62,477 nucleotides of DNA from NCBI GenBank assembly GCA_021807595.1, contig JAKBCS010000008.1, positions 1 to 62,477 of the forward strand. The letters run 5' to 3'. The DNA comes from Planctomycetota bacterium. GTDB taxonomy: Bacteria > Planctomycetota > Planctomycetia > Gemmatales > Gemmataceae. Each line of letters opens with the position of its first letter. Positions within the stretch are counted from its first letter, which is position 1. Shown here piece by piece: positions 13,164 to 37,801 of the stretch. The translations under genes and the position numbers were made by a program. The notes under the pieces are model-generated. The model made no database searches. It had not been told where the DNA came from and worked only from the letters and a program-made list of their open reading frames with translations.

Positions 13164-13264
13164 CGATCGTCCTCCTTGCGTTGATGGGCTATCTCTTTGC
13201 CTCTCCGCCTCGACGTGGTAATATCGCTTGGCCGCCGACGAAATACAATAGAGGGAGAACGCCA

Positions 13265-15469
13265 ATGCCCGCATCCCACGAGACGCGATCCATGAAATCC
13301 ATTGCCACACCAGCCGTAACTCTCGCCGAGTGCCTGTGCCGTCCGCGCCGGGTTGGCGTGTTCGGCCATCGCGGCGTGGGCAAAACGACGCTGTTGACGA
13401 TGTTGTACCGCGAAGCCGTCGGCGGTCGGATGCCGGATCTTCGCCTCGCCGCCGCCGACGCGCGCACCGCCGATTACTTGTCCGATAAGGTGCTGCAACT
13501 CGAATCGGGACTCCCGTTGCCCGCGACGCTCGGCGAGACGGAGTTGCGCTACCACCTATATTACCGAGAGCGCCGACTCGACCTGTTATTCAAAGATTAC
13601 CAGGGCGAACACATCGCGCTCGGTCGAGAGGAGCCGATCCGCGATTTTCTCCGCGATTGCGATGCCGTCTGGCTCTGTCTCGATGTGCCAGTCGTCGAGA
13701 ATCCCTCGGACTGCCTGCAAGCGCAACAAGAAGTCGAGCAAATCGTCGAGGATTATTTGACGGACGAGACGCCGGGAATGCCGCCGAGGCCGATGGCGTT
13801 GGTACTCACCAAGGGAGATTTAATCCAACAAGGATCGTCTAAGGAGTCTATAATCGAGCGTTATCTCAGCATGACGCGGCACACGCTGCAACTGCATTGT
13901 CCCGGACACGGATTGATGGCCGTCAGCAGTCTCGGTCCTCGTCGCACGGATGGTCGAGAGGGCAATCGGCCGTTTGACCCTCAACCGATCGACTTGGCTG
14001 AGCCGCTGATTTGGCTGGCCGAAACCTTGCAAACACTCGATGAGGCTCGGCTCAATTATTTGTGGGATTTGCCCGACGCTTCTTTGCCTCTTTTGCAGCG
14101 CTGTGTCGCCGCCTACGTTCGCCGCTATCCCGGCACGCCTGCCGCCTTGGGGTTCCAGGGAAGGCTTCGCCAGTGTCGGAAGCAAAGCCGTCGTCGCCGT
14201 GGCCTCGTGGGAGCGTTCCTTGCCGCGAGTTTGGCGCTCGCCCTGTGGACCTACGATGTCTGGGGCGAGCATCGAGCCGCGCGCTTCGCTGTGGAAAACG
14301 CCGACAATCCGCTGGCCGTGAAAGAAAACTGGCGATCGTTTCAACGCTGGCATCCGGCGAGGCACTGGCTGCGTCCCGCGTCCGCGCGCGCCGAACGGAT
14401 GCGGATGCGCGAACTCGACGACCGCGTCCGCAGCCAGGAATACGATGGGCGCTTGGTCGAGTTGCGCCGCCGCGCCGCCGATCCCGATGCCGACGCCGAG
14501 ACGGTTTGGCGCGACCTACAGAGCTTTCACCGAGAGTTTCCGGATCGAGATATCGACGAGGATTGGCAACAATTTCGCAACGCCCTCAAGCGGCGCGCCG
14601 ACTCTGAACGCGAACGCCGCGCCGAGGCCGCGTTCACCGAATTGGAACGCGAGGGCGACAAAAGCAATCTCCGATCGAGGATCGATCGCGCGGATCAGTT
14701 TCTCCGCGATTATGCCGGGACCGCGTGCGAATCCGAGGTACGCCGCCGTCGAGCCTCCTATGCGTTGCGCCTGGATGAACGCGACATGGAAGCCGCGCGC
14801 TCCTACTCGGCTTCTCATCCGCTGAACTTTCAGACGCGGCGCGAACTCTATCAACGCTATCTCGAAGGCCATCCCGGCGGCGCGTTCGCGGTGGAGGCGA
14901 GCAATTCTCTCAAGAACCTCGAATCCGATTGGGATAAGCACGACTTCCGAGCCGTACGCGACCGTTTTCAAGAGCAACCCGGCGACGTGAAAGAGTTGCA
15001 ATTGCTCTGCCGCTCGTACCTTGCCGTCCACACCGAGGGGCGCTTCCGCGATGCCGCCCGCGATCTGCTGCGCTGGACGGAGCGAGTCACGCAACCGGGT
15101 GAGTATCGAATCGTGCTGAAAAGCGGCGACTTCGATCGCAAGGCGGCCCATCTCCTAAGTCGGGGCCTGTCCCTCTCTGTGGCAATCGAGGTCAACGGCA
15201 CTCGCCACGGGCCGAGCAACATCGTCGCGCGCAGTTACCAACCGGAGTGGAACTACGAGTTTCCTCGTCGCGTCCGTTGGAAACTCGGCGACAGCGTCCG
15301 AATCATCGTTACCGATAATTACTATTGGGACCGCAAAGTCGCGGAGATCGCCTCGGAAGAAAACGATTCGTTGGCCATCCGCTTGCTCGACGGCGAAGTG
15401 CATTCGGGAAAGAACAGCCTGACATTCGAGTCGGATCTCCAAATGCCGGTGCTGCCGAAGATTGAATAA
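13265..15469 (+). CDS. Membrane-anchored GTPase-like protein, 734 residues
   Basis: The N-terminal domain (about residues 25-270) has a P-loop GHRGVGKT (34-41), a DYQGE switch-II-like motif near residue 111, and TKGD near 182 in the place of NKxD. A single membrane helix follows at about 313-333 (GAFLAASLALALWTYDVW). The remainder is a long charged helical region with TPR-like or coiled-coil character, then a beta-rich C-terminus resembling a C2-like sandwich (RIVLKSGDFDRKA..., WKLGDSVRIIVTDNYYWD). I know GTPases of this build from planctomycetes without an assigned role. The ATG at 13265 follows AGGGAG. Confidence 0.65.
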   Translation: MPASHETRSMKSIATPAVTLAECLCRPRRVGVFGHRGVGKTTLLTMLYREAVGGRMPDLRLAAADARTADYLSDKVLQLESGLPLPATLGETELRYHLYYRERRLDLLFKDYQGEHIALGREEPIRDFLRDCDAVWLCLDVPVVENPSDCLQAQQEVEQIVEDYLTDETPGMPPRPMALVLTKGDLIQQGSSKESIIERYLSMTRHTLQLHCPGHGLMAVSSLGPRRTDGREGNRPFDPQPIDLAEPLIWLAETLQTLDEARLNYLWDLPDASLPLLQRCVAAYVRRYPGTPAALGFQGRLRQCRKQSRRRRGLVGAFLAASLALALWTYDVWGEHRAARFAVENADNPLAVKENWRSFQRWHPARHWLRPASARAERMRMRELDDRVRSQEYDGRLVELRRRAADPDADAETVWRDLQSFHREFPDRDIDEDWQQFRNALKRRADSERERRAEAAFTELEREGDKSNLRSRIDRADQFLRDYAGTACESEVRRRRASYALRLDERDMEAARSYSASHPLNFQTRRELYQRYLEGHPGGAFAVEASNSLKNLESDWDKHDFRAVRDRFQEQPGDVKELQLLCRSYLAVHTEGRFRDAARDLLRWTERVTQPGEYRIVLKSGDFDRKAAHLLSRGLSLSVAIEVNGTRHGPSNIVARSYQPEWNYEFPRRVRWKLGDSVRIIVTDNYYWDRKVAEIASEENDSLAIRLLDGEVHSGKNSLTFESDLQMPVLPKIE

Positions 15470-23392: not shown

Positions 23393-24691
23393 ATGCCGCC
23401 GTCGCACGTCCGCAGTCGAGAAGCGTTCCAACGGGCCTGCCGCCTGATTCCTGGCGGAGTGAACAGTCCCGCCCGCGCCTTCGGAGCCGTTGGGGGGCAG
23501 CCGCCTTTCATCGAACGGGGCGAAGGCGCGTATCTGCACGATATCGACGGCAATCAATATGTGGATTTCGTCGGTTCTTGGGGTCCGCTCATTCTCGGTC
23601 ACGCCCATCCGCGCGTGGTGCGTGCCGTGGAAGACGCCATGCGTCGTGGAGCGAGCTTCGGTGCGCCCACGGAAGCGGAGTCGCAACTTGCCGAGCTAAT
23701 CGTCGACGCCGTCCCGTCGATTGAAATGGTGCGTCTGGTCAGTTCGGGCACCGAGGCTTCGATGAGCGCGATCCGCTTGGCGCGCGGCTTCACCGGGCGC
23801 GATGGGATCGTCAAATTCGCCGGTTGCTATCACGGCCACGTCGATAGTCTCTTGGTGCAAGCCGGTTCCAGCGCGACGACGCTGGGCGTGCCCAACAGTC
23901 CCGGCGTTCCAGTCGGCTGCACCGCCGATACGATGGTGCTGCGCTACAACGACGTACAAGGAGTGGCCGACGCCTTTGCCGCGCATGGCGACCGGTTAGC
24001 CGCGGTTATCCTCGAGCCTGTCGTCGGCAACATGGGTTTGGTTCGTCCCACCGTTGAGTTCCTTGAGGAGCTGCGTCGCCATACCGAAAAGCACGGCACG
24101 CTGCTGATCTACGACGAAGTGATGACCGGCTTCCGGCTGGCGTATGGCGGAGCGCAGCAGTTGTTCCATCAAATGCCCGATCTGACGGTGTTGGGCAAAA
24201 TCGTCGGTGGTGGTTTGCCGGTGGGAGCCTACGGGGGTCGCGCCGATGTGATGAAGCACGTCATGCCGTCGGGGCCGGTGTTTCAGGCCGGCACGCTGTC
24301 GGGCAATCCGTTGGCGATGGCCGCCGGCATCGCCACCTTGGAAGAACTGCGAGATCGTCCGCCGTACACTCGTCTGGAATCCTTAGGCGAACGCCTCGCC
24401 CAGGGGTTGAGCGATGCCGCTACCTCGGCGAACTTGGCACACTGTATTGCCCGCGTCGGCAGCATGTGGACGCTCTTCTTTACCAATGGCCCTGTCGTCG
24501 ATTACGACACCGCCAAGCAAGCCGACACGGCGCGCTTCGCTCGTTTCTTCTGGGCGATGATGGATCGAGGATTCTATCTACCGTGCAGCCAATTCGAGGC
24601 CGCGTTCCTCTGTACGCAGCACACCGAGAAACACATCGATCGAACGATTGAGGCAGCGCGCTCGGCCCTGATGGGTGTCGCTGCCGCATGA
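23393..24691 (+). CDS. hemL: Glutamate-1-semialdehyde 2,1-aminomutase
   Basis: A 432-residue PLP enzyme that isomerises glutamate-1-semialdehyde to 5-aminolevulinate, the substrate of the nearby HemB. Key regions: IPGGVNSPARAF, FVGSWGPLILGHAHP, VSSGTEASMSAIRLARG, CYHGHVDSLLVQAGS, the Asp in LLIYDEVMTGFRL, and the Schiff-base Lys in LGKIVGGGLPVGAYGG. Length is normal. The ATG at 23393 is preceded by a GAAGGAAGG purine run. The hemB-kinase-hemL order shows that this organism makes 5-aminolevulinate by the C5 route. Confidence 0.96.
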   Translation: MPPSHVRSREAFQRACRLIPGGVNSPARAFGAVGGQPPFIERGEGAYLHDIDGNQYVDFVGSWGPLILGHAHPRVVRAVEDAMRRGASFGAPTEAESQLAELIVDAVPSIEMVRLVSSGTEASMSAIRLARGFTGRDGIVKFAGCYHGHVDSLLVQAGSSATTLGVPNSPGVPVGCTADTMVLRYNDVQGVADAFAAHGDRLAAVILEPVVGNMGLVRPTVEFLEELRRHTEKHGTLLIYDEVMTGFRLAYGGAQQLFHQMPDLTVLGKIVGGGLPVGAYGGRADVMKHVMPSGPVFQAGTLSGNPLAMAAGIATLEELRDRPPYTRLESLGERLAQGLSDAATSANLAHCIARVGSMWTLFFTNGPVVDYDTAKQADTARFARFFWAMMDRGFYLPCSQFEAAFLCTQHTEKHIDRTIEAARSALMGVAAA

Positions 24692-24830
24692 ATCTTTCGA
24701 TCGCCGACAAGATCGAGTTACCATTCCGGTCCCCTCATCGTTAGGCTCAAGCCCGAGTACCATTCGTGCCGATCAAAGGATTTGAGGTAGTCTGGATCGT
24801 AGCGCGTCCAAAGGATGGGGGCTTCCGCTC

Positions 24831-25925
24831 ATGCACGATCTCCAAGCGGCGGCGACGGCGTTTAACGAAGGGCGGTTCGACGAAGCCGAATCGCTCTGCC
24901 GCGCGACTCTGGCCACTACCCCCAATCACACGGAGGCGAACCTGATCGTGGCGTCGGTGATGCTCGGCCGCCAGCAGATTACCGAAGCGGAGAAGCTCAC
25001 AGCCGAGGCGATGACGCATTCCTACAACCATCCGGAATGGCTCAATCTGCGCGGCGTCGCGTTGGCGCGACTCGGACGACGCGAGGAGGCTCTCGACTTC
25101 TTCGATCGAGCCATCGAGCGCCGCTTGCTTTTCCCCGTAGCTCAAGCCAACATGCTCGCAATGTTGGCCGAGCGACGCGATGCAACTCCGCGCTTCTCGG
25201 TGACCGTCGTGACGCCGACCATCGGTTCGCCTCACCTCGCGCAGACCATCGAGAGCGTGCAAGCTCAGACCTATCCGCACCTGGAACACATCATCGTCAC
25301 CGATGGGCCGGACTTTTACGACCGCGTCGGCCCGCTCATGCCGAGTCGCCCTCGCCATCCAGTTCATTTATTCACCTTGCCATATAATGTTGGAGCAGGG
25401 GGGTGGAACGCCCATCGCATTGCGGCGGCCATTCCGTATCTCGTGAACGGCCGCTACATCTCGTTCCTTGACGACGACAACTGGATTGAGCCGGACCATG
25501 TCTCCCTGCTCATGGCCAAGATTACTGCCGAGGGATTGGCCTGGGCTTATTCGCTGCGCAAAATCGTGGATGAGCGGGGGCAATTTGTCGCCAATGACGA
25601 TTGCGAGAGCCTGGGAGTTTGGCCCACTTTCTATAATGCCGCGCTCAACCATGTCGATGGGAACTGTTATATGATGCGAAGAGACATCGCCATGACGACG
25701 AGTACCATTTGGTATCGCCGATTCCGCGATGGCGAGAGTCCCGATTTCGTGGTGTGTCGTCACTTGCTCAAAGAATTTCCTCGCTGTGGGTGCAGCGGCG
25801 GCTATACTGTGAATTATCGAGCGGGCAGCACTCCCGCCTCGGTCCAGCCGGATTTCTTCCTTCGTGGCAACCGTGTGATGAAACAACGTTACGGCGACTT
25901 ATTACCTTGGCGATTGGCGAGTTGA
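24831..25925 (+). CDS. TPR-fused family 2 glycosyltransferase
   Basis: A 364-residue protein. Residues 1-115 contain about three TPR units (AFNEGRFDEAESLCRATL..., LGRREEALDFFDRAI). From about residue 121 a GT-A fold begins with FSVTVVTPTIGS and continues SVQAQTYPHLEHIIVTDG, with the metal-binding acidic motif FLDDDNW near 211-217. It should transfer a sugar from a nucleotide donor. The same TPR/GT2 combination, in other order, occurs in the flagellin glycosyltransferase GmaR of Listeria. It heads the plus-strand half of the proposed glycosylation island, 48 bases before the acyltransferase gene. Confidence 0.8.
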   Translation: MHDLQAAATAFNEGRFDEAESLCRATLATTPNHTEANLIVASVMLGRQQITEAEKLTAEAMTHSYNHPEWLNLRGVALARLGRREEALDFFDRAIERRLLFPVAQANMLAMLAERRDATPRFSVTVVTPTIGSPHLAQTIESVQAQTYPHLEHIIVTDGPDFYDRVGPLMPSRPRHPVHLFTLPYNVGAGGWNAHRIAAAIPYLVNGRYISFLDDDNWIEPDHVSLLMAKITAEGLAWAYSLRKIVDERGQFVANDDCESLGVWPTFYNAALNHVDGNCYMMRRDIAMTTSTIWYRRFRDGESPDFVVCRHLLKEFPRCGCSGGYTVNYRAGSTPASVQPDFFLRGNRVMKQRYGDLLPWRLAS

Positions 25926-25973
25926 ACGATTCGTCGGATTGAAAATCGATCAAAGCTCTGTTGGTGTCTCCTT

Positions 25974-26717
25974 ATGCTTCGTGCGACGATCCATCCCTCG
26001 GCTCAAATTGCTTCCGATGTTGTACTCGGAGAATATACCGTCGTCGGCGAACGAGTGAAAATCGGATCGGGTACGATTGTTGGGAACGGATGCGTCGTTC
26101 ACAATGATACCATTATCGGGAGAGATGCTCGGCTATTCGACAATGCTGTGATAGGCCGAGTCCCGCAGCGTGTGGCGAGCATGACTCGCGCTATGACAAC
26201 CATTCTGCCGCCCTTGCGGATCGGCGATGGCTGCGTCGTCGGCGCATGCGCCGTGTTGTATCGTGGAACGATTGTGGGGGAGGCGTGCCTGATCGGTGAT
26301 TTGGCCACTATCCGTGAAGAGGTTGAGATCGGCGGGGACAGCGTGATAGCCCGATTGGTGAGCATCAATTATAACACCCAAATTGGTCGGCGCGTCAAAA
26401 TAATGGACAATAGTCACATTACGGGCAACATGACAATCGAGGACGGTGTGTTTGTCAGCGTACTGGTCTCGACGACAAACGATAAAGACATGGATCGTCG
26501 TAAAAACTCCGAGGCAAGTTACAATGGCCCGACGATTCGCCGCGGGGCAAGCATCGGAGCCGCCGCCACGCTGCTACCCGGCGTGACGGTCGGCGAATAT
26601 GCAATGGTTGGGGCGGGGGCGCACGTCTACCGCGATGTCCCACCCCGGAAAATTGCGATGGGATCGCCGGCCCGCGTCGTCAGAGATGTACCCGCCGATA
26701 TGATTTCCGACAACTGA
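25974..26717 (+). CDS. Left-handed beta-helix (hexapeptide-repeat) acyltransferase
   Basis: A 247-residue protein made of hexapeptide repeats such as IGSGTIVGNGCVV, IGDGCVVGACAVLYRGTIVGEACLIG and the C-terminal VTVGEYAMVGAGAHVYRDVPP. This is the LpxA / WbpD-like trimeric fold that moves acetyl or longer acyl groups from CoA or ACP to sugars. It lies between the TPR-GT2 gene and a gene for a dedicated ACP, so an acyl-ACP donor is plausible. The convergent DegT aminotransferase could provide an amino-sugar acceptor. Acyl chain length cannot be read from sequence. Confidence 0.82.
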   Translation: MLRATIHPSAQIASDVVLGEYTVVGERVKIGSGTIVGNGCVVHNDTIIGRDARLFDNAVIGRVPQRVASMTRAMTTILPPLRIGDGCVVGACAVLYRGTIVGEACLIGDLATIREEVEIGGDSVIARLVSINYNTQIGRRVKIMDNSHITGNMTIEDGVFVSVLVSTTNDKDMDRRKNSEASYNGPTIRRGASIGAAATLLPGVTVGEYAMVGAGAHVYRDVPPRKIAMGSPARVVRDVPADMISDN

Positions 26718-26738
26718 CGGCATTCACGGAGATTGTCC

Positions 26739-26975
26739 ATGACTTTGGAGCAATTCGTTCGGCAGTTCGCGGATGCCATTCAGACCGACCCGGGAAGTCT
26801 TCGCCCGGACGTGCGTTTGGCGGATCTCGCCGAGTTCGATTCAATGGGAAGGCTGTGTGTGATGTCGATGATTGACAGCCGATTCGGATATGTAATTCCG
26901 GCCGACGTGCTAAATAAGATGACGACAATCGGCGAGCTATTTCATTGTGCCCAACGCGGATCGACTGAGGTGTAA
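26739..26975 (+). CDS. Second acyl carrier protein
   Basis: A 78-residue carrier protein with the phosphopantetheine serine in AEFDSMGRL, where housekeeping ACPs have DSLD. Helix II is less acidic than in AcpP, so it probably talks to other partners. The ATG at 26739 sits seven bases after GGAG, and a TTG two codons earlier is possible. It lies between the acyltransferase and the KAS III gene, suggesting that it carries the acyl group for the sugar-modifying enzymes. Confidence 0.85.
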   Translation: MTLEQFVRQFADAIQTDPGSLRPDVRLADLAEFDSMGRLCVMSMIDSRFGYVIPADVLNKMTTIGELFHCAQRGSTEV

Positions 26976-27023
26976 CCGTTCCATGAAATAGTGATTCTCA
27001 TAGCTTGAAAAAGAATACAAACC

Positions 27024-28037
27024 ATGTTCCATGCGTCGATCGGCGGTATTCGAGGCTACTTGCCCGAGCGCGTATTAACGAACGAAGAGCTATCTCAAGA
27101 AATTGGTTGGACTCCCGCAGACATCGCACGGAAGACGGGCATCGTTTCACGACGAATTGCCGCGGCGGACGAGTGTGTTTCGGACATGGCGACGCTCGCA
27201 GCCAAGCGCTTGATAATCGATCTCCGACTCGACCCAGAAGCGCTCGACTTCTTGATCCTTTGCACCCAGACGCCCGATCACTATTTGCCAACCACCGCCT
27301 GTCTCGTTCAATGTCGATTGGGCTTGCCTTCCCGTTGCGCCTCGTTCGATCTCAATCAAGGCTGCTCCGGTTACATCTATTCGTTGTCCGTGGCGGCTGC
27401 CTACATCCGATCGGGGATGTTTCGACAGGGCATCGTCCTGACGGCGGATACTTATAGTAAATTGATCCATCCTAAAGATCGGTCGGTTCGCACACTCTTT
27501 GGAGACGCGGCGACGGCGACCTGGATTCGTCGTAGCGATGAACCGGGCTTGGGACGCTTTGTCATGGGGACCGATGGCTCGGGGGCGGAGAATTTAATTG
27601 TCCCGGCTGGAGGCTTGCGGCAACGGTCGAGCCAGAAATCAAGTCGAGAGTTTCAGGATGAGAGCGGCAATACTCGATCCGCCGATCACCTCTCCATGAA
27701 TGGCCCTACCTTGTTCGAGTTCGCGCTGCGCCGCGTCCCCGATTTAGCGAACCGAGTTCTCGAGTCGAACGATTTGGGCGGCGATTGTCAACCCCATTGG
27801 TATGTATTCCATCAGGCCAGCGGCTTTATGTTAGAACAATTGCGAAGTAAAATGAGTATTCCCAGAGAGAAGGTCGTCTATCATTTACGCGAGGTGGGCA
27901 ACACCGTCTCCTCTACCATCCCTTTGGCCCTGCGCGAATACGAACAACTGGGCCGCTTTTCCGTTGGGGAGAAGTTACTTCTCCTCGGCTTCGGCGTCGG
28001 TTACTCCTGGGGTGGAACGATACTAACCTGGCGATAG
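27024..28037 (+). CDS. Ketoacyl-ACP synthase III-like enzyme
   Basis: A 337-residue thiolase-fold enzyme. The complete Cys-His-Asn triad is seen: Cys114 in FDLNQGCSGYIYSL, His in VFHQASGFMLEQL, and Asn in EVGNTVSSTIPLAL. N-terminal IGGIRGYLPERVLTNEEL is typical of FabH relatives. Because it follows its own ACP and an acyltransferase, it more likely builds a short beta-ketoacyl chain for a glycan than starts fatty-acid synthesis. No ketoreductase gene is next to it. It is convergent with the aminotransferase gene, 31 bases apart. Confidence 0.88.
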   Translation: MFHASIGGIRGYLPERVLTNEELSQEIGWTPADIARKTGIVSRRIAAADECVSDMATLAAKRLIIDLRLDPEALDFLILCTQTPDHYLPTTACLVQCRLGLPSRCASFDLNQGCSGYIYSLSVAAAYIRSGMFRQGIVLTADTYSKLIHPKDRSVRTLFGDAATATWIRRSDEPGLGRFVMGTDGSGAENLIVPAGGLRQRSSQKSSREFQDESGNTRSADHLSMNGPTLFEFALRRVPDLANRVLESNDLGGDCQPHWYVFHQASGFMLEQLRSKMSIPREKVVYHLREVGNTVSSTIPLALREYEQLGRFSVGEKLLLLGFGVGYSWGGTILTWR

Positions 28038-28068
28038 ATCGTCGCGGACGCTCCATTGTTCGTTCCGC

Positions 28069-29190
28069 TCAGCCGGCTAACCGAATGCCGATGGCCAACT
28101 CATGGCATACGAAGCGCACTTGCTCTTGGGTAAGTTCGGGAAAAATGGGCAGCGACAGAATTTGCCGTGCGAGTCGTTCCGCGATCGGGAAGCAACCGAC
28201 CCCGCCGAGATGGGGATACGCTTCCTGAAGATGAATGGGCACCGGATAATGGATGCCCGCACCGATCCCAACGCTCTGTAAATGCTGTAAGACAACGTCG
28301 CGATTTGCCCGTTTGAGGGCGACTACAAACAAATGATAGACGTGTTGGCGGGACCAAGGTGCTTCCGAAGGAACGATCAATTCATCCCCCAGCTCTCTCA
28401 ATTCGTTGCGATACCAATCGGCGATAGTTCGACGTTGCCGATTCCATTCGGCAAGATGGTGGAGTTTCACTAACAAGACAGCAGCTTGGAGCGTATCGAG
28501 TCGGCTATTATACCCCTGGACTCGGTGAACGTATTTTACTGTGGAGCCCCAATTGCGCAACAATCGCAACTGCTCGGCCAAACGATCGTCGTTTGTACAA
28601 ATGGCTCCCCCGTCTCCGTAGGCACCGAGGTTCTTGCCGGGATAGAAGCTGAACGCGGCTGCCGCTCCAAGAGTTCCTACCCGTCCCAAACGATTCTCCG
28701 CTCCGTGCGCCTGGGCCGCATCCTCAATCGCAAGCAATCCTTTCCGACGGGCAAAATCCATCAGTTCTTCCATGTTCGCCGATTGGCCGTAAAGATGTAC
28801 GGGAATCAACGCCTTCACATTGGGTGTGAGAGCGCGTCGGGCGGACTCCGCGTCCATGGTAAAGGACGTGGGATCGACATCGCACAAAACGGGTTCGGCT
28901 CCGGCATCACTGACGGCCAGCGCAGTCGCGATGAATGTATTGGCCGGAAGTAGAACGCGATCCCCCGGGCCGATACCCAGCGCGTGGAGGCTGAGAAAAA
29001 GGGCGTCCGTCCCACTTCCCACCCCAACGGCGTGGCGAGTCCCAATGAAGGCGGCAAAGGCGATCTCAAATTGTTCGACCTCTCGGCCAAGGATGAAATC
29101 GCCTCGTTCCAATACCTTGGCAATGGCCGCATTCATCTCCGAATGCAAGGATTGATACTGCTGTCGTAAATCGACCAAAGGTATATTCAT
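28069..29190 (-). CDS. DegT/DnrJ/EryC1/StrS sugar aminotransferase
   Basis: A 373-residue PLP enzyme that transaminates keto-sugar nucleotides. Signatures: IPLVDLRQQYQSLHSEM, AVGVGSGTDALFLSL, DAAQAHGAEN, and the PLP lysine in FSFYPGKNLGAYGDGGAI. With the dehydrogenase encoded 18 bases upstream it forms the usual two-step set that makes a 3-amino sugar (WbpB/WbpE or GnnA/GnnB in other bacteria). It is last in the minus-strand series that begins at the flagellin gene. Confidence 0.92.
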   Translation of the reverse strand: MNIPLVDLRQQYQSLHSEMNAAIAKVLERGDFILGREVEQFEIAFAAFIGTRHAVGVGSGTDALFLSLHALGIGPGDRVLLPANTFIATALAVSDAGAEPVLCDVDPTSFTMDAESARRALTPNVKALIPVHLYGQSANMEELMDFARRKGLLAIEDAAQAHGAENRLGRVGTLGAAAAFSFYPGKNLGAYGDGGAICTNDDRLAEQLRLLRNWGSTVKYVHRVQGYNSRLDTLQAAVLLVKLHHLAEWNRQRRTIADWYRNELRELGDELIVPSEAPWSRQHVYHLFVVALKRANRDVVLQHLQSVGIGAGIHYPVPIHLQEAYPHLGGVGCFPIAERLARQILSLPIFPELTQEQVRFVCHELAIGIRLAG

Positions 29191-29208
29191 GATGCGACAA
29201 CCCCAAGA

Positions 29209-30270
29209 CTACACGCGCGCTCGACGAACTCGGTTGGCGGTTGGCTTCGACCGCTTTGAAGCTCGGTCGATGCCCATCCCTCGCATGGAGACCATGAGCG
29301 ATTCCAAGGTTTCCACCACGTCGCGCGCGAATTTCCCATCCGTTAGCGGCCGCTGCCGATTTTGAACGCAATCGAGGAAATGTCGATCTTGCACTTTCAG
29401 CGGCTCTTCCGATATCAGTTTCGGGATAAGTACATCGGCGTCGCGCAATCGGAATTGGAACTGGCCGAAGGAATCGTAATAAGGCTCCTGCATCAATCCC
29501 TTGTCGTAGAGTCGGATCGGCTCCAGGGGCGAGGTGTCGTCCCACACGGCCATCTTCTTGTCGCCCACGACGACAAGGGTGCGTTCCTTGCGTGGATTGA
29601 GCCAACTAACGTGCATGTGGCACATCGTCTTATTGGGAAAACGCAGAGAAGCGAAGCATACGTCTTCGATGTCGAGTTGTAAGAATTTCTCCCCCCATGC
29701 GCCGACCTCGACGGGTTTGTCGTCGAGAAGATAGTGGAAAATGGAAACATCGTGGCTGCCGAGATCGTAAAGTGCATTTACATCACGACGCACCGGGCCG
29801 AGATTGGTCCGAGTCGCCGTCATGTAATAGACCCTGCCCATCGTACCGTCGTCAATATATTGGCGCAATCGACGGATGCCCGCGTTAAAAAGAAATACGT
29901 GGCCGCACATTAAGATGCGATCCTGCTTTTCGGCCAGGGCAATAAGATGGTCCGCTTCCATCGTGCTGTATGTGATAGGTTTTTCCACCAGCACATCCTT
30001 ACCGGCTAGAAGCGCGGCTTCCACCAGACCATAATGGGAGGATACCGGCGTGGCGACGACGACGGCGTCCACATCGGGCCGGCGCAGCAATTCCTTATAA
30101 TCGTCGGTCAGCTCCACCTCCGGGGACTGTTGCCGAACTGCTTTCAATCGCTGCGAGTCGGTGTCCGCGATGATGCGCACGCACGAATCGTGGAAATGAT
30201 TGAAGATCCGGACGTGATTCGGACCCCAATGGCCGTATCCGATTAAGCCAAGACCTATCATGGGATTCAT
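29209..30270 (-). CDS. Gfo/Idh/MocA-family sugar dehydrogenase
   Basis: A 353-residue NAD(P)-dependent oxidoreductase. The Rossmann motif is LGLIGYGHWGPNH near the N-terminus, and the family's catalytic segment reads DVLVEKPITYS. The C-terminal part has the Gfo/Idh beta-sheet domain. It probably oxidises a nucleotide sugar at C3 for the next enzyme (DegT) to transaminate. Its ATG overlaps the stop of the TPR gene (ATGA), showing coupling to the flagellar half of the operon. Confidence 0.88.
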   Translation of the reverse strand: MNPMIGLGLIGYGHWGPNHVRIFNHFHDSCVRIIADTDSQRLKAVRQQSPEVELTDDYKELLRRPDVDAVVVATPVSSHYGLVEAALLAGKDVLVEKPITYSTMEADHLIALAEKQDRILMCGHVFLFNAGIRRLRQYIDDGTMGRVYYMTATRTNLGPVRRDVNALYDLGSHDVSIFHYLLDDKPVEVGAWGEKFLQLDIEDVCFASLRFPNKTMCHMHVSWLNPRKERTLVVVGDKKMAVWDDTSPLEPIRLYDKGLMQEPYYDSFGQFQFRLRDADVLIPKLISEEPLKVQDRHFLDCVQNRQRPLTDGKFARDVVETLESLMVSMRGMGIDRASKRSKPTANRVRRARV

Positions 30271-30686
30271 CCGAGTAGAACGGTGGAGGAAGATAAGGAA
30301 TGTCGGTTGGAAGCCAATCGATCCAGGTTCGCTCGCGCTTGGAGATTACCCGCGTCGAGTTGTAGTGCATTTTGAAACGCGCAAATCGCTTCTTCTTTTC
30401 TGCCGAGGGCCGAGAGCGCAACGCCTCGACTGTTGTGATAACCGGCAACGTCGGGCCGACAGTTTACCGCGCGGGTCAGAAGGGTAAGGGCCTGCTCTTT
30501 TTGTCCGAATTGATGCGCGGCCAAACCGAGCAAGTGTAAGGCATCGGCGTGGTCCGGAACCGCGTCGAGGATTCGTCCGTAGATCGAAACCGCTTGCGGG
30601 AGACGACCGGCTCGCTGATGCGCGATGCCTTCGTCCAATAGACGAACAAAATCGGGACTGGGGATATTCATGGCAGAGTCTCTCAT
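30267..30686 (-). CDS. Small TPR protein
   Basis: A 139-residue protein of about three TPR units (GRLPQAVSIYGRILDAVPDHADALHLLGLAAHQ..., GRKEEAICAFQNAL). It overlaps both neighbours by four bases: ATGA with the GT41 gene upstream and ATGA with the dehydrogenase downstream. I therefore kept the start at 30686; a second Met five residues on (30671) is possible. It has no catalytic motif and may be an adaptor or acceptor-binding partner for the glycosyltransferases. Confidence 0.75.
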   Translation of the reverse strand: MRDSAMNIPSPDFVRLLDEGIAHQRAGRLPQAVSIYGRILDAVPDHADALHLLGLAAHQFGQKEQALTLLTRAVNCRPDVAGYHNSRGVALSALGRKEEAICAFQNALQLDAGNLQARANLDRLASNRHSLSSSTVLLG

Positions 30687-33016
30687 TGGCCGTCCCCGAC
30701 GACATGGTGTGTCATTGCGTTCGCGGTTTGTCGACGAGGTTGTGCGTTTAGGAAGAACTGCTCCAGATCGCGGAGAATGCCGGGATTCTCAAAAAGAACG
30801 TCCTTCTTTTCAAGAATGCGCGAGGACATCTCGGCACGCCACTCGGAATCGTTTCCTAGACGGAGTGCCAGCCGCACGTAGTCGTCTCCGTCGGCGGCGA
30901 CGAGGTCGGGCAGGCCCATGCGGCGATAGAATCCGTAGGTCAGCCGACTGCGTAGAAAATTCCCCGGCAGTGTGACCAGCGGTGCGCCGACCGCGAATGT
31001 CTCAAGGCTCGTGTTACCCCCTCCGAAATGAATCGTGTCCAATACGACTTCGGAGATTGCTAAAAGGCTAAGGAATTCCGCGGCGTCCAAGCGAGACAAA
31101 AAGACGACGCGCCGGGCGGCATCGCCGAGCGTGGAGTCAAATCGCTTCTTCAGAAGCTGGGACCAATAGTCTTTTTGGCCGGCGATCAGGACGAGACGTC
31201 CTTTGGGGTCGGCCTCCAGGATGCGCGCCAGTAGCACATCAAAATCGGGATGGAATTTGAACAAGCTCTGCGGGCAGGTGTACAGATGATCCTCGTCGGA
31301 CAGACCGAAGTGAGCGCGCGTGTGCAACGTCTGGGGCAATTGCGGTCGATAATAGTACGTCGTCATGTTGTCCAGGCGTACTAATTTTTCGGTATAATGC
31401 TCGTCACCGTCGGAGGGATCGAGGTCGCGCGCGGAAATGAAATAGTCCATTGTGGGAATGCCGGTCGTGTCCGGATGTCCCCAGGTGACACACTGAATGG
31501 GTGCCAGACGCGAAAAGGCGAGATAATACGTCCACGGGTCCATGCCGATATCGGTGTAGAACAGAATGTCTAATTCTTGGTCGGCAACAATGCGCCGCGT
31601 TTGTTCGAGATGATTGGGAAGCAAGATAAATCGATCCGCGCTGCGGCGAATCTCGCCGCGCCATTCATCCTCCGGACGATGGAAGGTCAAAACGCTGACC
31701 TCGAAGTGTTCGCGCGATAAATGGCGGATAATGCCGGCGTTTAATTTGCCGATGGTATGATTAAAAAAGAGGCGCGAGAGGAAGCCGATGCGGATGCGTC
31801 CCTCGCGGCGTTTTGGAGAATCGAGACGGCAGTGCGGCGCAGTCCAGGTAAGTGAGGGGGTGGCGCGGACATGGATTGCGGCGAGATCGGCCATGACCTT
31901 GCGATCGTTCTTGCCCTGGTAGGCCAAATAAAACGAGAGATTTCCCACCCGCGCGAGAGGATCCTCAATACTCAAATCCTGGTTGCGCAAATGGGCCAGA
32001 CCACTCTCGATGCGTCGCCGGTGGAGTTCTCCTTCGGACAGCGAGCCGGGGATCACGGGCAGCAAGAGTGTGGACAATAATTTCAGTGCATCGTTGGGAG
32101 ACTGTGCCAACGCGCGCTCGACGCCCACCGCGGCTTCGTTGTAACGGCCCTCTTCGGCGAGAAGGAGACAGAGATTGGCTCTGGCCTCCGGGTGGTTCGG
32201 TGCGCGCTCGAGCGCTTGCTGATAATAGCCCATCGCCTCCGCGCGGCGTTCGGCAATGCGATGTACATTGGCCAAATTGTTATACGGGTCGGCCGGTTTG
32301 GGATCGCGTTCGATGGCCGTCTCGAAACAGCGCTCCGCCTCTTCCATTTGTCCCTGGGTATGATGGTATATGCCGAGGTTGTTATGAGCCGGTGCGAAGC
32401 GGGGATTAATGCGTATCGCTTCGTGAAAATAATACGCTGCCTCCGCGTTCGCACCTCTTAATAAATGTACCAAGCCGAGATTGTTCACGGGCGCGGCATA
32501 AGCGGGATCGAGACGACTGGCTTTGCGGAAAAAATCGGCGGCTTCGTCGGTCTGTCGCATCTCATAAGCGACGAGTCCCGCATGATTGAACGGTTCGGCA
32601 AAATCGGGACGCAGCATGATCGCTCGAAGAAAGCAGCGAAGCGCGGGATTGTGCTTGCCGTGCGCTTGATACACTAATCCCAAATTGTTGTAAGCTTCGG
32701 CGTAATTGGGGCGCAGTCGAAGCGCCTCCTCGAAGCAACTTTGCGCTTCGCTCAGCCGCTCCTGCGCCGCCAAGACCTCGCCGAGATCGTGATGAAATTC
32801 GGGGCGCTGGGGGTCGAGTTGAATTGCCCGGCGCAAGGTCTCGGCAGCTTCGTCGCGCCGACCACTTTGCAGGAGGGCCACGCCGTAAAGATGCAACGCC
32901 TCCGCGTTGGTTGGGTCCGACGCGAGGATACGTCCGTATAGTCTTCGAGCCTCGCTCAGCGCACCCGCTTGGTGACGGCTGAGCGCGTGTTCCAAGGTTC
33001 CCTTCGTGGAAGACAT
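30683..33016 (-). CDS. TPR / GT41 O-GlcNAc transferase-like glycosyltransferase
   Basis: A 777-residue protein. Residues 1-400 are a superhelix of roughly ten TPR units (for example YGRILASDPTNAEALHLYGV). From about residue 400 the SPINDLY/OGT catalytic region begins (RIRIGFLSRLFFNHTIGKL), with ILFYTDIGMDP, CVTWGHPDTTGIPTMDYFI, a Rossmann part LVLIAGQKDYW, and the UDP-site segment FGGGNTSLETFAVGAPLVTLPG. It should add a sugar to Ser/Thr of a protein. I chose the ATG at 33016 with AAGGA upstream. A TTG at 33097 overlapping the fliS stop is an alternative. It lies directly behind fliS, so flagellin is the likely acceptor. Confidence 0.85.
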   Translation of the reverse strand: MSSTKGTLEHALSRHQAGALSEARRLYGRILASDPTNAEALHLYGVALLQSGRRDEAAETLRRAIQLDPQRPEFHHDLGEVLAAQERLSEAQSCFEEALRLRPNYAEAYNNLGLVYQAHGKHNPALRCFLRAIMLRPDFAEPFNHAGLVAYEMRQTDEAADFFRKASRLDPAYAAPVNNLGLVHLLRGANAEAAYYFHEAIRINPRFAPAHNNLGIYHHTQGQMEEAERCFETAIERDPKPADPYNNLANVHRIAERRAEAMGYYQQALERAPNHPEARANLCLLLAEEGRYNEAAVGVERALAQSPNDALKLLSTLLLPVIPGSLSEGELHRRRIESGLAHLRNQDLSIEDPLARVGNLSFYLAYQGKNDRKVMADLAAIHVRATPSLTWTAPHCRLDSPKRREGRIRIGFLSRLFFNHTIGKLNAGIIRHLSREHFEVSVLTFHRPEDEWRGEIRRSADRFILLPNHLEQTRRIVADQELDILFYTDIGMDPWTYYLAFSRLAPIQCVTWGHPDTTGIPTMDYFISARDLDPSDGDEHYTEKLVRLDNMTTYYYRPQLPQTLHTRAHFGLSDEDHLYTCPQSLFKFHPDFDVLLARILEADPKGRLVLIAGQKDYWSQLLKKRFDSTLGDAARRVVFLSRLDAAEFLSLLAISEVVLDTIHFGGGNTSLETFAVGAPLVTLPGNFLRSRLTYGFYRRMGLPDLVAADGDDYVRLALRLGNDSEWRAEMSSRILEKKDVLFENPGILRDLEQFFLNAQPRRQTANAMTHHVVGDGQ

Positions 33017-33093
33017 GGACGGAATCCTTTCGAGCGGATCGAACGCTGCTTCACTCCAGACCCGATTGTATAAAGGTTCGTCGCGACATTCGA

Positions 33094-33510
33094 TCAAGCC
33101 ATCGCTTGGAGAGTCGTTAAACTATTGATCGGCGGAATGGCTCCTCGTCGCTCCAGCTCAACGGCTTCGGGTCGTATTTTTTGGAACCCTTCGCGTAGGA
33201 TGCGCAGCACATTCAGCGCCGACCGCATGTCGTCTTCGCCTCCCTTTTCTAGTTCGTGCAGGCAGAATTCATATAGGCGTAAAATGTCCGTCGTAACGGG
33301 ATCGCCGTCGGCCACGACGCCAGAGGCTAAACCCATGACGATGAGCCGCGCCTTAACCAGTCGGGCTTTCGCACCCTTTGTGTCGCCTCTCGCCAGTGCA
33401 GACAATGCCTGCTCGCAGCGTTCGACCGCGCCATCGTACAGTGCTAAAAGCATGTCGATGCGCGTCCAACTCGGTGAGGACTGTTGCTGGTATTTGTTGT
33501 ACGGGTTCAT
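33094..33510 (-). CDS. fliS: Flagellar export chaperone FliS
   Basis: A 138-residue helical protein that binds the C-terminus of flagellin before export. The N-terminus MNPYNKYQQQ and the segment IDMLLALYDGAVERCEQAL match the family, as does the helical continuation to a C-terminal helix (LNVLRILREGFQKI). Length is as expected. It follows fliD by 91 bases and precedes the GT41 glycosyltransferase. Confidence 0.93.
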   Translation of the reverse strand: MNPYNKYQQQSSPSWTRIDMLLALYDGAVERCEQALSALARGDTKGAKARLVKARLIVMGLASGVVADGDPVTTDILRLYEFCLHELEKGGEDDMRSALNVLRILREGFQKIRPEAVELERRGAIPPINSLTTLQAMA

Positions 33511-33601: not shown

Positions 33602-36022
33602 CTAGCCGAGGGTGGTAGAACTGCTCGAACTGGTACTCGTCGGCGTCGCACTGCTCAGCGAAGCACCCAGCGCATTACCCGCCGATTGTAGTTGCGCCAA
33701 GACCGATTCCATGTTGTTGAACTCCGACAAAAGCGCTTGCTGTTGACGTTGAAGGTTTTGTTGCTGTTGAGTGATATTTGTTGTGAGGCTCGTGGATTGG
33801 TTTTGCAGTCCTTGCGTGGCGATGGTGATTTGTCCCGCGACCGGATCGAGCATCTGCGTGAGTACATTGTTCAACTGTGAGGCGATGCCTTGGGTGACGG
33901 CGATATTCCCTTCGGGTGAGCTGGTGACTTGCGAGGGCGTAAGCGTGGATAGAACCGCCAAGCCGCCCGTATATTTGTTGCCCGTATTACCGGTCAACAC
34001 CTGACCGCTGCCTGTCGCCGATTCTACGATGCCATTGTAAATGTAATTCCCGGCTACATCTTGCCCGCTGCCCGATTCCGAACCTGTATATCCCAACGAG
34101 GTTAAAGCCGTGCCCGCGAGATTGGCGACCGAGGAATGCGATCCGAAACTGTTGGACGTCAAAACGAGTTGGCCGCTGCTATTGACGTTGGCCGTCACGG
34201 TCGCGCCGCCGAGAGAACTGCTGGCATCAATTGCCGATTGTACTTGTTGGGCAAGTTGTGCTTGTGTGTAGGTTCCGCTTGCGAGCGTAACCGTGCCGGA
34301 ATTCTGGCCGTCGACGGCGAGGCTGAGGGTGTCGTTACTGCTACCAATCGTAATAGAGTTCGCCAGGGCGGTGGTGGCCGAGGCCGCCGCTTGGGTGGCC
34401 GCTTGAGTGATCTGAACCTGAATCGGAGCGTTGGTTCCTTGTATATTGGATGGCGCAAAGACGTAGGAAACGGCGGGGTTGCTCGATGTCGCGTCCTGCA
34501 CGAAGAGGCGGCGAACATCGTTCGAGGAGATACCACTCAATTGACCGTTGAGCGCCTGATTCAAGGTGGTGTTGTTGACCGACAAGGTTCCGTCGGAATT
34601 GACGCCGATGCCGACGGACGCCAAGTCACTGGCCATTTTGTTGACGCCAGTAACTGCCGAAGTAACTGTTTCACTCAGCCGATTGGGGATAGACGTGGCA
34701 TTATAATCGCCGAGGAAGATCCCGGCCTGATTCGTTTGCGAATCGAACGAGTCGTTTTGATTGATATATCCGATGAGACTGTTATACGCGCTGACAAATC
34801 CATCGATGCTGGTGGCCGTGGTCTGGGTATTGTTGGCTACCGAGACCGTGACGGGAGACGAACTCGTTCCCGTCAGATTCAGGGTGACTCCGTTAAATAA
34901 ATTCTGGATCTGATTGCTAGAATTGGTAATGGTCGCCGCGCCGGGGCCTGAGCCGATCGTTAAGGACGCATCGCTCGCCGCTTGGGTATTCGGTGTAAAG
35001 GCGTCGATGGAAAACGTCTGTCCCGTCGTCACTGTGCCGCTGCTGAATTGGACGGTCAGTCCCTCGGCCACGGCGGCGGGGGAACTGAGCAAAGTCGAAC
35101 TGCCGTTAATCGTTCCTTTAATCGTGCCGCTGCTGTTGGTATAGGCGATGCTCGTGGCGGAGTTCGTGATGTCGCCACCGTTGATTACCGTAAATGTAAA
35201 GGTATCGTTGTTGGTTCCCGTATAGGAGCCGCTGCCGGCGTTGGAGGTCGGTGTCGCGGTACCACTCCAACCGGAGGATGGGACGGCTTGACCGATGTAC
35301 GTCGCGTTCAGTTCCGGCCTCATCGCGCCGTTAGAACTGGCGGCCAAATGATTGGTAATCGTTATGGCATTGGCCGTGCCGCTATTATTGGAAGTCAGCA
35401 TCAGGCGATTGCCCTGCGAGGAGCTGCCATCGTTGACGATTGTAGCGGTCGCGCCGGCGTTGGAGCCGTTGATGGCGTTGGCCAAACCTTGCAAGGTATC
35501 GTTGCTGCCATCAATGGTGATCGTGGTCGCCGGGCCGCTGCCGACCTGAAATTGAAAAGTCCCTTGTGTAATCGAGCTGGTGGCGGAATCGAAACCCTGC
35601 GAAGAGGTTTCTTGGGCCTGAGCGAGGCTGTTGACGGCGAAACTGTATTGACCCGGAGTAGCACCGCTGGAAGCCGAAGCCGAGACGACGGCGGGATTGC
35701 TGGAAGTAGCGGTTCTTCCATCGAATACACTATTGGTCGCTGGGGTTAGGTTGCCGAGCGAGGATTGCAGAGCGGTCAAGTACGACTGGATGGTATTATA
35801 GGCCGCTTCGCGCTGCTGAATCTGTGCTTGCTGAGTTTGCAGGTTGGTGATGACGGCCTGTTCGGGTGCCAACAAACCTTGAATGAGTTGATTCGTATTT
35901 AGCCCGCTGACCAATCCCTGGAACGAAATACCGCTGGTGCTCAGTCCGGTTATGCCCGATGTGCTGGACGAACCGCTCGCCGTACTTGCTGGGGCACTGG
36001 AGACGGAAGACAACGCGGACAT
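33602..36022 (-). CDS. fliD: Flagellar filament cap protein FliD, enlarged
   Basis: An 806-residue hook-associated protein 2 that caps the filament and helps flagellin fold into place. The FliD N-terminal region is clear (ISFQGLVSGLNTNQLIQGLLAPEQ, then a coiled coil of Gln-rich heptads). The C-terminal region also ends in a Gln-rich coiled coil (ITQQQQNLQRQQQALLSEFNNM). Typical FliD has 450-600 residues. The extra length is in the middle, a Ser/Thr/Asn/Gly-rich beta region of several FliD-like subdomains. No Cys is present and almost every surface segment offers hydroxyl residues. Confidence 0.92.
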   Translation of the reverse strand: MSALSSVSSAPASTASGSSSTSGITGLSTSGISFQGLVSGLNTNQLIQGLLAPEQAVITNLQTQQAQIQQREAAYNTIQSYLTALQSSLGNLTPATNSVFDGRTATSSNPAVVSASASSGATPGQYSFAVNSLAQAQETSSQGFDSATSSITQGTFQFQVGSGPATTITIDGSNDTLQGLANAINGSNAGATATIVNDGSSSQGNRLMLTSNNSGTANAITITNHLAASSNGAMRPELNATYIGQAVPSSGWSGTATPTSNAGSGSYTGTNNDTFTFTVINGGDITNSATSIAYTNSSGTIKGTINGSSTLLSSPAAVAEGLTVQFSSGTVTTGQTFSIDAFTPNTQAASDASLTIGSGPGAATITNSSNQIQNLFNGVTLNLTGTSSSPVTVSVANNTQTTATSIDGFVSAYNSLIGYINQNDSFDSQTNQAGIFLGDYNATSIPNRLSETVTSAVTGVNKMASDLASVGIGVNSDGTLSVNNTTLNQALNGQLSGISSNDVRRLFVQDATSSNPAVSYVFAPSNIQGTNAPIQVQITQAATQAAASATTALANSITIGSSNDTLSLAVDGQNSGTVTLASGTYTQAQLAQQVQSAIDASSSLGGATVTANVNSSGQLVLTSNSFGSHSSVANLAGTALTSLGYTGSESGSGQDVAGNYIYNGIVESATGSGQVLTGNTGNKYTGGLAVLSTLTPSQVTSSPEGNIAVTQGIASQLNNVLTQMLDPVAGQITIATQGLQNQSTSLTTNITQQQQNLQRQQQALLSEFNNMESVLAQLQSAGNALGASLSSATPTSTSSSSSTTLG

Positions 36023-36169: not shown

Positions 36170-37579
36170 TTACTGAAGTAGAGTCAGTGCCAATTGCGAA
36201 AGCTGATTGGCATTTTTGAGGACCATAGTTCCCGCTTGCACCAAGACTTGGCTTTGCGTGTAATTGGCCGTTTCAGAGGCAAAGTTGGTATCGCGGATGG
36301 TTGAGTTCGCCGCCGTGGTGTTCTGCAACGAGGTTTGCAGATTGGCCGCCGTCGCTTGCAACGTGTTGTCCTGGAACGCGCCGAGCGTGCCCGCCGTGTT
36401 CGCCACGTCGCTGATCGCCTTGTCGATGATGGCCAGAACATTGGCGGAACCGGAAGGATTCATCACGTTAATTTGCGACAAGTTTACCATCGTGGTCGAG
36501 GTGTTGCCGCTGGCATTGAGGCCCAGATTGTCCGCGGTCATGGACTGGATGGACAGGCTCGCGCTCTGGCCGCTATTGGCACCGATTTGGAACAACAGCG
36601 CGTTGTTGGCGTTGACCTCGATCGTGGTGCCGTTCGTCAGGGTCTGATTGGCGTATGTTCCGCTGTTGGTGGCCACGGTGACGCTGAGTCCGGATGCCGC
36701 GCCGGCGGTGGCGTAAAGCGTATTACCCACGCCCTCGGCGACCTGCCCGTTGATCGTGCCCTGGATATTTGTGCCATCGGCACTCGTCGCGCCGGAAGTG
36801 AGGCCGGTGGCGTCGGTACCGGAACTGGCGCTAACACTAATCGTGTGGCCACTGCCGAAGGTGGTCGAGTACAGAACGAGATTCGTCGTACCGTTCGCGG
36901 TCGCCGACACGCCGGTCTGACTGGTGTATGCATTAATGTCGTTGGCCATTGAGCCGAGGCTGGAGTTGGCGGCGATGGCGATTTGTACGCCGTTGAGGGT
37001 CAGCGTCTCGGCATTCCCCGTATTCGACGCCGTGCCACCGACTACGGTGGCGGCGGTGCCAGCGTTCGTGATGGCTACCGTGTAGTTCCCCGTGGTCAGG
37101 GAGCCAGGATTGGTTGGCGTGTAGCCGGTGTTGGAACTGGTCGTGGCGGCAGCGTGGCTACCGTCGATCAACTTCTCGTTGCCGAATTGGGTCGAACTAG
37201 CGATGCGCGTGATGGTTTGCAGAGCGTTGGCGATCTGCGATTGGTCCGCCGCCAACGTGTTCGGATCATTGGCCCCCGAGTTGGCGGCATCGACGGCCAG
37301 CGCGCGAATCTGAAGCAGCAGCGAGTTCGACTCGTTGAGCGCTCCGTCGGCGATCTGCACCACGTTGGTGGCCTTCGAGGTGTTGGTGATCGCCGTCTGG
37401 AGACCGCTCATCTGCGCCATTTGTTCTTGACTGATGACCAGGCCGGCGGGGTTGTCGGCACCGCTGTTAATCGCCAAGCCCGACGACAGCCGCTGCAGCG
37501 ACACGTTCAACGAATTGTTGGCGTTGTTCAAGTTGTTCTGAGCGACTTGCGATGCGATGTTGTTCACGAGGGACAGCAT
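36170..37579 (-). CDS. fliC: Flagellin
   Basis: A 469-residue filament protein. The conserved D0/D1 N-terminus is seen (NNLNNANNSLNVSLQRLSSG, then GADNPAGLVISQEQ). The C-terminal D0/D1 is ANYTQSQVLVQAGTMVLKNANQLSQLALTLL. The central 200 or so residues are Ser/Thr/Gly/Asn rich, an exposed D2-like region and likely site for O-glycosylation. The ATG at 37577-37579 is preceded by AGGAG. An upstream extension to 37669 is not flagellin-like. It is first of the series leading to fliD, fliS and the sugar genes, with 147 bases to fliD. Confidence 0.95.
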   Translation of the reverse strand: MLSLVNNIASQVAQNNLNNANNSLNVSLQRLSSGLAINSGADNPAGLVISQEQMAQMSGLQTAITNTSKATNVVQIADGALNESNSLLLQIRALAVDAANSGANDPNTLAADQSQIANALQTITRIASSTQFGNEKLIDGSHAAATTSSNTGYTPTNPGSLTTGNYTVAITNAGTAATVVGGTASNTGNAETLTLNGVQIAIAANSSLGSMANDINAYTSQTGVSATANGTTNLVLYSTTFGSGHTISVSASSGTDATGLTSGATSADGTNIQGTINGQVAEGVGNTLYATAGAASGLSVTVATNSGTYANQTLTNGTTIEVNANNALLFQIGANSGQSASLSIQSMTADNLGLNASGNTSTTMVNLSQINVMNPSGSANVLAIIDKAISDVANTAGTLGAFQDNTLQATAANLQTSLQNTTAANSTIRDTNFASETANYTQSQVLVQAGTMVLKNANQLSQLALTLLQ

Positions 37580-37801
37580 ACCGGCACGATCTCCTGCTAT
37601 GGGATGTAGAACGCAGAGTGCGTAACCCGCCACAACAGCGTGGTTGTCCCGACTTATCGAACTCCGCACCGAAAACTTGCTCGATAAAGTGAGCCGTCCG
37701 GGTCACAAGCGGCGGGAAGAATCGCGGAATCGGTAGAATCGACACAATCGGAAGCAAGAGAAGCGCCGAAGCATCGCTTCCCTTCTGGATGCCGAGTCGT
37801 G

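Follow-up and report, generated by a model that had tools for sequence, protein, structure and literature searches.

A VioS-type KAS III, ACP and acyltransferase cassette, probably acting on a C3-amino sugar, at a planctomycete flagellar glycosylation locus

Gene islands that place an acylated amino sugar on flagellin are a kind of system already known, since the viosamine island of P. syringae (vioA, vioM, vioT, vioS, vioB, vioR and acp) yields N-(3-hydroxybutyryl)-viosamine on flagellin, a product for which vioA, vioB and vioR are required; mutants and mass spectrometry provide the evidence for vioR and vioM, and earlier work that for vioA, vioB and vioT (PMC3927599). By description, the flagellar glycosylation island of P. 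aeruginosa PAK resembles it in orfA-orfE, which supply an aminotransferase, an ACP, a 3-oxoacyl-ACP synthase, a reductase and a transferase beside the flagellin genes (PMC4020848; PMC3927599). The pathway to UDP-GlcNAc3NAcA runs through a 3-dehydrogenase, a C3-aminotransferase and a left-handed beta-helix (LbH) 3-N-acyltransferase, WbpB, WbpE and WbpD (also WlbA, WlbE and WlbB) (PMC10622841). O antigens provide known cases of a 3-hydroxybutanoyl group on a C3 amine, that of Fuc3N and that of Qui3N (PMC4869667); the corresponding transferases of E. coli O103 and Hafnia, FdhC and QdhC, which we liken by description, act on O-antigen sugars whose synthesis goes through RmlA and FdtAB/QdtAB. In Caulobacter, flagellin is glycosylated by FlmG, a protein that combines TPR and glycosyltransferase parts (PMC7591256). 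The Shewanella sfm operon was set aside as a precedent, as a reductase but no KAS III or ACP is named in it (PMC3765264).

The locus described here belongs to a planctomycete of the Gemmataceae, and the window, meaning the whole stretch of DNA analysed, is 62,477 nucleotides long. Genes for an LbH acyltransferase, an ACP and a beta-ketoacyl-ACP synthase III (KAS III) lie in it intact, closely spaced and in that order on the + strand, beginning 48 bp downstream of a TPR-GT2 gene; they converge with a DegT-Gfo gene pair, with which they do not form one operon. The initial annotation had read the trio in just this way, as a beta-helix acyltransferase, an ACP with DSMG and a KAS III with a Cys-His-Asn triad, and all three reading frames were found where it had placed them.

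24831..25925, + strand: TPR and family-2 glycosyltransferase (GT2), directly upstream of the trio and inside the putatively exchanged block (Pfam Glycos_transf_2 43.6 bits, plus TPR)
25974..26717, + strand: QdtC/WlbB-like left-handed beta-helix (hexapeptide) N-acyltransferase (LbH), 247 aa (Pfam Hexapep 112.7 bits)
26739..26975, + strand: dedicated ACP of about 78 aa with its attachment serine within DSMG (PF00550, PP-binding, 25.8 bits, cut-off 20.8)
27024..28037, + strand: VioS-like beta-ketoacyl-ACP synthase III, 337 aa, Cys114/His263/Asn293 (both ACP_syn_III domains; NF006829 281.6 bits, cut-off 249)
28069..29190, - strand: DegT-type sugar aminotransferase similar to C3-aminotransferases, its gene convergent with that of the KAS III (Pfam 389 bits)
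29209..30270, - strand: Gfo/Idh/MocA sugar dehydrogenase, putative NDP-sugar 3-dehydrogenase (Pfam 93 bits)
30267..30686, - strand: small TPR protein
30683..33097, - strand: TPR and GT41 (O-GlcNAc-transferase-like), putative flagellin glycosyltransferase, flanked by fliS and the sugar genes (TPR repeats; Pfam Glyco_transf_41 100.6 bits)
33094..33510, - strand: FliS, flagellin chaperone (Pfam 54.6 bits)
33602..36022, - strand: FliD-like flagellar cap protein (94% over a 655-aa alignment with a sister-species ORF; also ORFs beside FliS or flagellin in other relatives)
36170..37669, - strand: flagellin (Pfam Flagellin_N 88.4 bits, Flagellin_C 50.2 bits)
about 24600..29400, no strand: block differing from the sister species, from the end of a hemL-like gene to the 3' end of the dehydrogenase gene (sliding DNA identity)

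With the viosamine island the window shares a VioS-clade KAS III bearing the Cys-His-Asn residues, a small ACP and a hexapeptide acyltransferase, both adjoining, together with a DegT protein and a glycosyltransferase. The island has a C4-type aminotransferase and a ketoreductase, whereas the window has relatives of C3-type enzymes, a Gfo protein and a GT41 protein, and no ketoreductase; the PAK island likewise differs from the window in its reductase and in listing no Gfo gene among orfA-orfI. The cassette is real and its kind is known; what is new is the combination. On balance we think it probable that the trio supplies and transfers acyl groups in the VioS manner for a C3-amino-sugar pathway belonging to a flagellar glycosylation locus, and that a flagellar sugar thereby receives a short, fatty-acyl-like group.

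The best solved relative of the KAS III is 3gwa of Burkholderia (317 bits, against 165 bits for E. coli FabH), and a tree of 57 rows places it with 3gwa and the KAS III of the Pseudomonas loci, apart from its own genome's two FabHs and the control FabHs. Support (SH-aLRT) is 100 for the fork between the VioS and FabH groups and drops to 89 for the inner fork containing the window sequence, which has no close sister. It is 48.5-49.4% identical to the Pseudomonas VioS-island enzymes as against 33% to its own FabHs, shares with the former a leucine (Leu88) at the position of FabH Phe87, and keeps a Cys114-His263-Asn293 triad that is invariant across the aligned relatives. Judged by its sequence, the window enzyme is of the VioS type and not a housekeeping FabH. 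The adjoining ACP scores 86.4 bits against a profile of the ACPs of cassette relatives; its ORF is open from a TTG at 26733 (26733-26975), and the ATG at 26739, with GGAG ahead of it as read by eye, is the likelier start. Its phosphopantetheine serine lies in DSMG, as against DSLD in the window's AcpP (881-1258, - strand), a difference that is unremarkable for such ACPs because DSLD occurs in 0 of 69 cassette ACPs in a motif census. Since two PPTase genes are present, activation of the ACP is possible.

A scan of genome contigs recovered 80 loci with this KAS III from many phyla, and only 14 of the 392 genomes drawn from the planctomycete phylum, the window's own included, carry a KAS III at E 1e-70 or better. 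In the 50 loci that extend for 5 kb or more in both directions from the KAS III gene, home-made profiles placed an ACP within 5 kb in 44, a ketoreductase (SDR) in 45, an LbH protein in 34 and a DegT protein in 23, the corresponding counts at 20 control FabH loci being 0, 3, 1 and 0 (Fisher p 1e-12, 3e-9, 2e-6 and 1e-4, values that serve only as a guide because loci from related species are not independent). The Pseudomonas loci among them appear to be viosamine islands, as in one of them (L100) the gene sizes (GT 1173, DegT 372, SDR 253 and LbH 213 aa) match the published table (PMC3927599). Flagellin was found in the examined flanks of four cassette loci, from Janthinobacterium (L093), Paraburkholderia (L101), Sporomusa (L121) and a Burkholderiaceae MAG (L126). 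In 26 of the 50 cassettes (among them L063, L066, L077, L082, L084, L093, L098, L101, L112 and L126) there is a further KAS III, which belongs to a separate clade and has an intact Cys-His-Asn triad; the window has no such second enzyme. In four Synergistaceae loci (L103, L106, L128 and L132) the KAS III stands alone, with no ACP, SDR or LbH called nearby. Lone members of the window's subfamily, with no sugar genes called alongside, occur in same-class genomes and in Blastopirellula (L052, L058 and L119), and the gene next to the one in L052 looks by eye like YqgE/DUF179; the KAS III of the same-class genomes group with the Blastopirellula sequence in the 57-row tree.

Against the explanation stands the ketoreductase, which 45 of the 50 cassette loci have and the 62-kb window lacks throughout, leaving a VioR-type member without a counterpart in the cluster. 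This bears out the earlier remark that no ketoreductase lies next door and that any reduction of the chain would need an outside enzyme. FabG-like genes located elsewhere in the genome could supply it, or the group may stay acetoacetyl. The convergent layout of the trio and the DegT-Gfo pair also counts against the explanation.

The aminotransferase and the acyltransferase set the locus apart from the viosamine-type islands in a second way. The best PDB matches of the window DegT are DesV (345 bits), QdtB (322 bits) and WbpE (258 bits), which are enzymes of C3 amines, rather than C4 aminotransferases of the VioA type; it is only 28-29% identical to the VioA-like DegTs of L082, L100 and L104, and the closest DegT of any cassette reaches 35%. 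In L100 (Pseudomonas) the DegT, and in L093 (Janthinobacterium) both the DegT and the LbH, find their matches in 2po3 and VioB/PglB/PerB, which are presumably C4 enzymes. By sequence the window DegT is a predicted C3-type aminotransferase. In the window, the acyl supply thus seems to serve a different sugar pathway, because the DegT and LbH resemble C3 enzymes and those of the two island relatives tested resemble C4 ones. The Gfo protein, at 178.5 bits against the UDP-GlcNAc 3-dehydrogenase profile NF040723 (cut-off 450), falls below the threshold and has no clear solved relative. The sugar may be UDP-GlcNAc, as for GnnA/GnnB (which make UDP-GlcNAc3N for lipid A), or UDP-GlcNAcA, as for WlbA/WbpE-like enzymes.

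The window LbH scores as an N-acyltransferase of the QdtC/WlbB type, with QdtC (84.8 bits), WlbB (72.6 bits) and FdtD (68.4 bits) as best PDB matches, and is related to WlbB while being a longer protein. These families act on C3 amines, as the PDB titles of QdtC and WlbB also state, and are 3-N-acetyltransferases. Asn169 aligns with the asparagine of the TND/TN motif in QdtC and WlbB and does not vary among 16 relatives. Where QdtC has an HH pair, the aligned residues of the window protein are YN, the HH pair and the TND asparagine being residues that we take to be catalytic. An AlphaFold model built with 16 relatives (mean pLDDT 69, pTM 0.49) supports the fold class only, because Foldseek ranks QdtC and then WlbB first at a TM of about 0.25 and VIA-align leaves LpxA, QdtC, gamma-carbonic anhydrases and others tied at Z 10-11. 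It might be that this protein is an ordinary acetyl-CoA-dependent 3-N-acetyltransferase replacing the WlbB-like enzyme of the sister species, with the ACP and KAS III as an unrelated or decaying passenger. That its closest solved relatives are acetyltransferases suits this reading, as does the long LbH type lying beside DegT genes with no ACP or KAS III in the 18-20 kb examined in G015 (L155) and G006 (L156), so that family membership alone is no proof of acyl-ACP use; the missing ketoreductase, too, could signify an eroded cassette. Yet none of the three ORFs is disrupted, they follow one another closely on a single strand, the KAS III triad is whole, and VioS-type KAS III accompanies ACP and LbH genes across many phyla, which makes a passenger unlikely.

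Comparison with a sister species of the same genus (G003) shows how the cassette is placed. Its syntenic locus runs GT2, DegT, WlbB-like LbH, Gfo, TPR, GT41, FliS, FliD, and so carries a gene set of the WbpB/WbpE/WbpD type, a pathway comparable to that of the window, with its putative 3-dehydrogenase, in having a 3-dehydrogenase, an aminotransferase and an LbH, and unlike it in having no ACP or KAS III and probably in its acetyl-CoA donor. Neither of the latter occurs at the G003 flagellar locus, nor is there a VioS-type KAS III in G003. Where G003 has a gap of about 7 bp between GT2 and DegT, the window carries the trio, and where G003 has its WlbB-like gene between Gfo and DegT, the window has a 19-bp gap; no WlbB-like gene appears among the LbH matches listed for the window's genome (G000). 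In sliding comparison, DNA identity to G003 runs at about 87-95% as far as the end of a hemL-like gene, drops to 60-71% or becomes unalignable from about 24600 to 29400, and is 82-93% beyond. Protein identity follows the same course, at 91-97% before the block, 68% for GT2 and 71% for DegT, then 87% for Gfo, 90% for GT41, 92% for FliS and 94% for FliD (85-97% overall outside the block). The simplest reading of these alignments would be an allelic block exchanged by recombination, of which either allele may be the older. Base composition bears no mark of foreign origin (GC content 0.561 in the block, 0.603 and 0.564 in the flanks), and no donor of the block was found, the best KAS III relatives being 51-52% identical. 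In two further genomes of the genus (L193 and L194), FliS is followed directly by a MotA-looking gene and adjoins no GT41 or sugar gene of the locus set; the whole glycan module therefore varies within the genus.

For the cassette as a whole, then, we envisage that the Gfo/Idh/MocA enzyme would oxidise C3 of an NDP-HexNAc-type sugar and the DegT enzyme, going by its relatives, would aminate it. KAS III would meanwhile start the chain on the private ACP, condensing malonyl units with a short acyl-CoA (in all likelihood acetyl-CoA) to give acetoacetyl-ACP, which a housekeeping FabG may reduce to 3-hydroxybutyryl-ACP; the QdtC/WlbB-like LbH would then move this acyl group, in place of acetyl, to the C3 amine, and GT2 and the TPR-GT41 protein, given their position, may build the sugar into a flagellin glycan. 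Our confidence in the exact acyl group is lower than in the explanation as a whole. More tentatively, and with some doubt on our part, a movable KAS III and ACP module, known from flagellin glycans with C4-amino sugars, may have been joined to a C3 pathway by block exchange at the flagellar locus, through a QdtC/WlbB-type acyltransferase that takes acyl-ACP, so that one and the same flagellar sugar would bear acetyl in one sister species and a C4 acyl group in the other.

That flagellin is the target is suggested by gene position and by the FlmG precedent. The same cassette might serve a sugar bound for another surface glycan, such as LPS or exopolysaccharide, with the flagellar genes as mere neighbours, much as many cassette loci sit in gene sets with no flagellar genes. 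We regard this as improbable, since TPR-GT41, FliS, FliD and flagellin come directly after the sugar genes, the neighbourhood is the same in G003, and a protein of comparable make-up, TPR plus glycosyltransferase, glycosylates flagellin in Caulobacter (PMC7591256).

The initial annotation had reasoned by analogy with LpxA, an acyl-ACP user that has the left-handed beta-helix in common with the window LbH, and this analogy did not hold up: against the LpxA profile TIGR01852 (cut-off 231) the window protein scores 94.9 bits in full and 76.7 bits as found in the genome, far below the threshold, whereas the genome's own LpxA, on another contig (C14), reaches 297.5 bits, and the best solved relatives remain QdtC, WlbB and FdtD; identity with LpxA was rejected. 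Acylation of lipid A precursors at O or N in the manner of LpxA, or an accessory set for fatty-acid synthesis, is a very improbable and disfavoured reading, as the likeness is limited to the shared fold and part of the N-terminal half, while the genome has a separate true LpxA, the KAS III falls outside the FabH clade, and the neighbours are an aminotransferase and flagellar genes. Two broader claims of that annotation, that a dedicated ACP and KAS III serve a sugar acyltransferase and that the destination is a glycan and not lipid A, agree with the cassette statistics, the KAS III tree, the sister locus and the P. syringae island (PMC3927599).

If the explanation is right, flagellin-glycan islands have an acyl-supply part that works as a cartridge, open to different amino-sugar pathways and reaching well outside Proteobacteria, and the window species and G003 offer a natural comparison for what the private ACP contributes. 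It would further suggest that a KAS III family which sequence searches match to FabH models, 3gwa included, serves glycan rather than lipid synthesis. The Burkholderia "FabH" 3gwa is sister, with support of 100, to the KAS III at 8001-9008 of L101, a cassette at the flagellar locus of Paraburkholderia, and may therefore be a glycan enzyme and not a fatty-acid one. Elsewhere in the window, and unrelated to the cassette, an ORF at 13061-15469 carries a DO-GTPase2 domain (40.7 bits).
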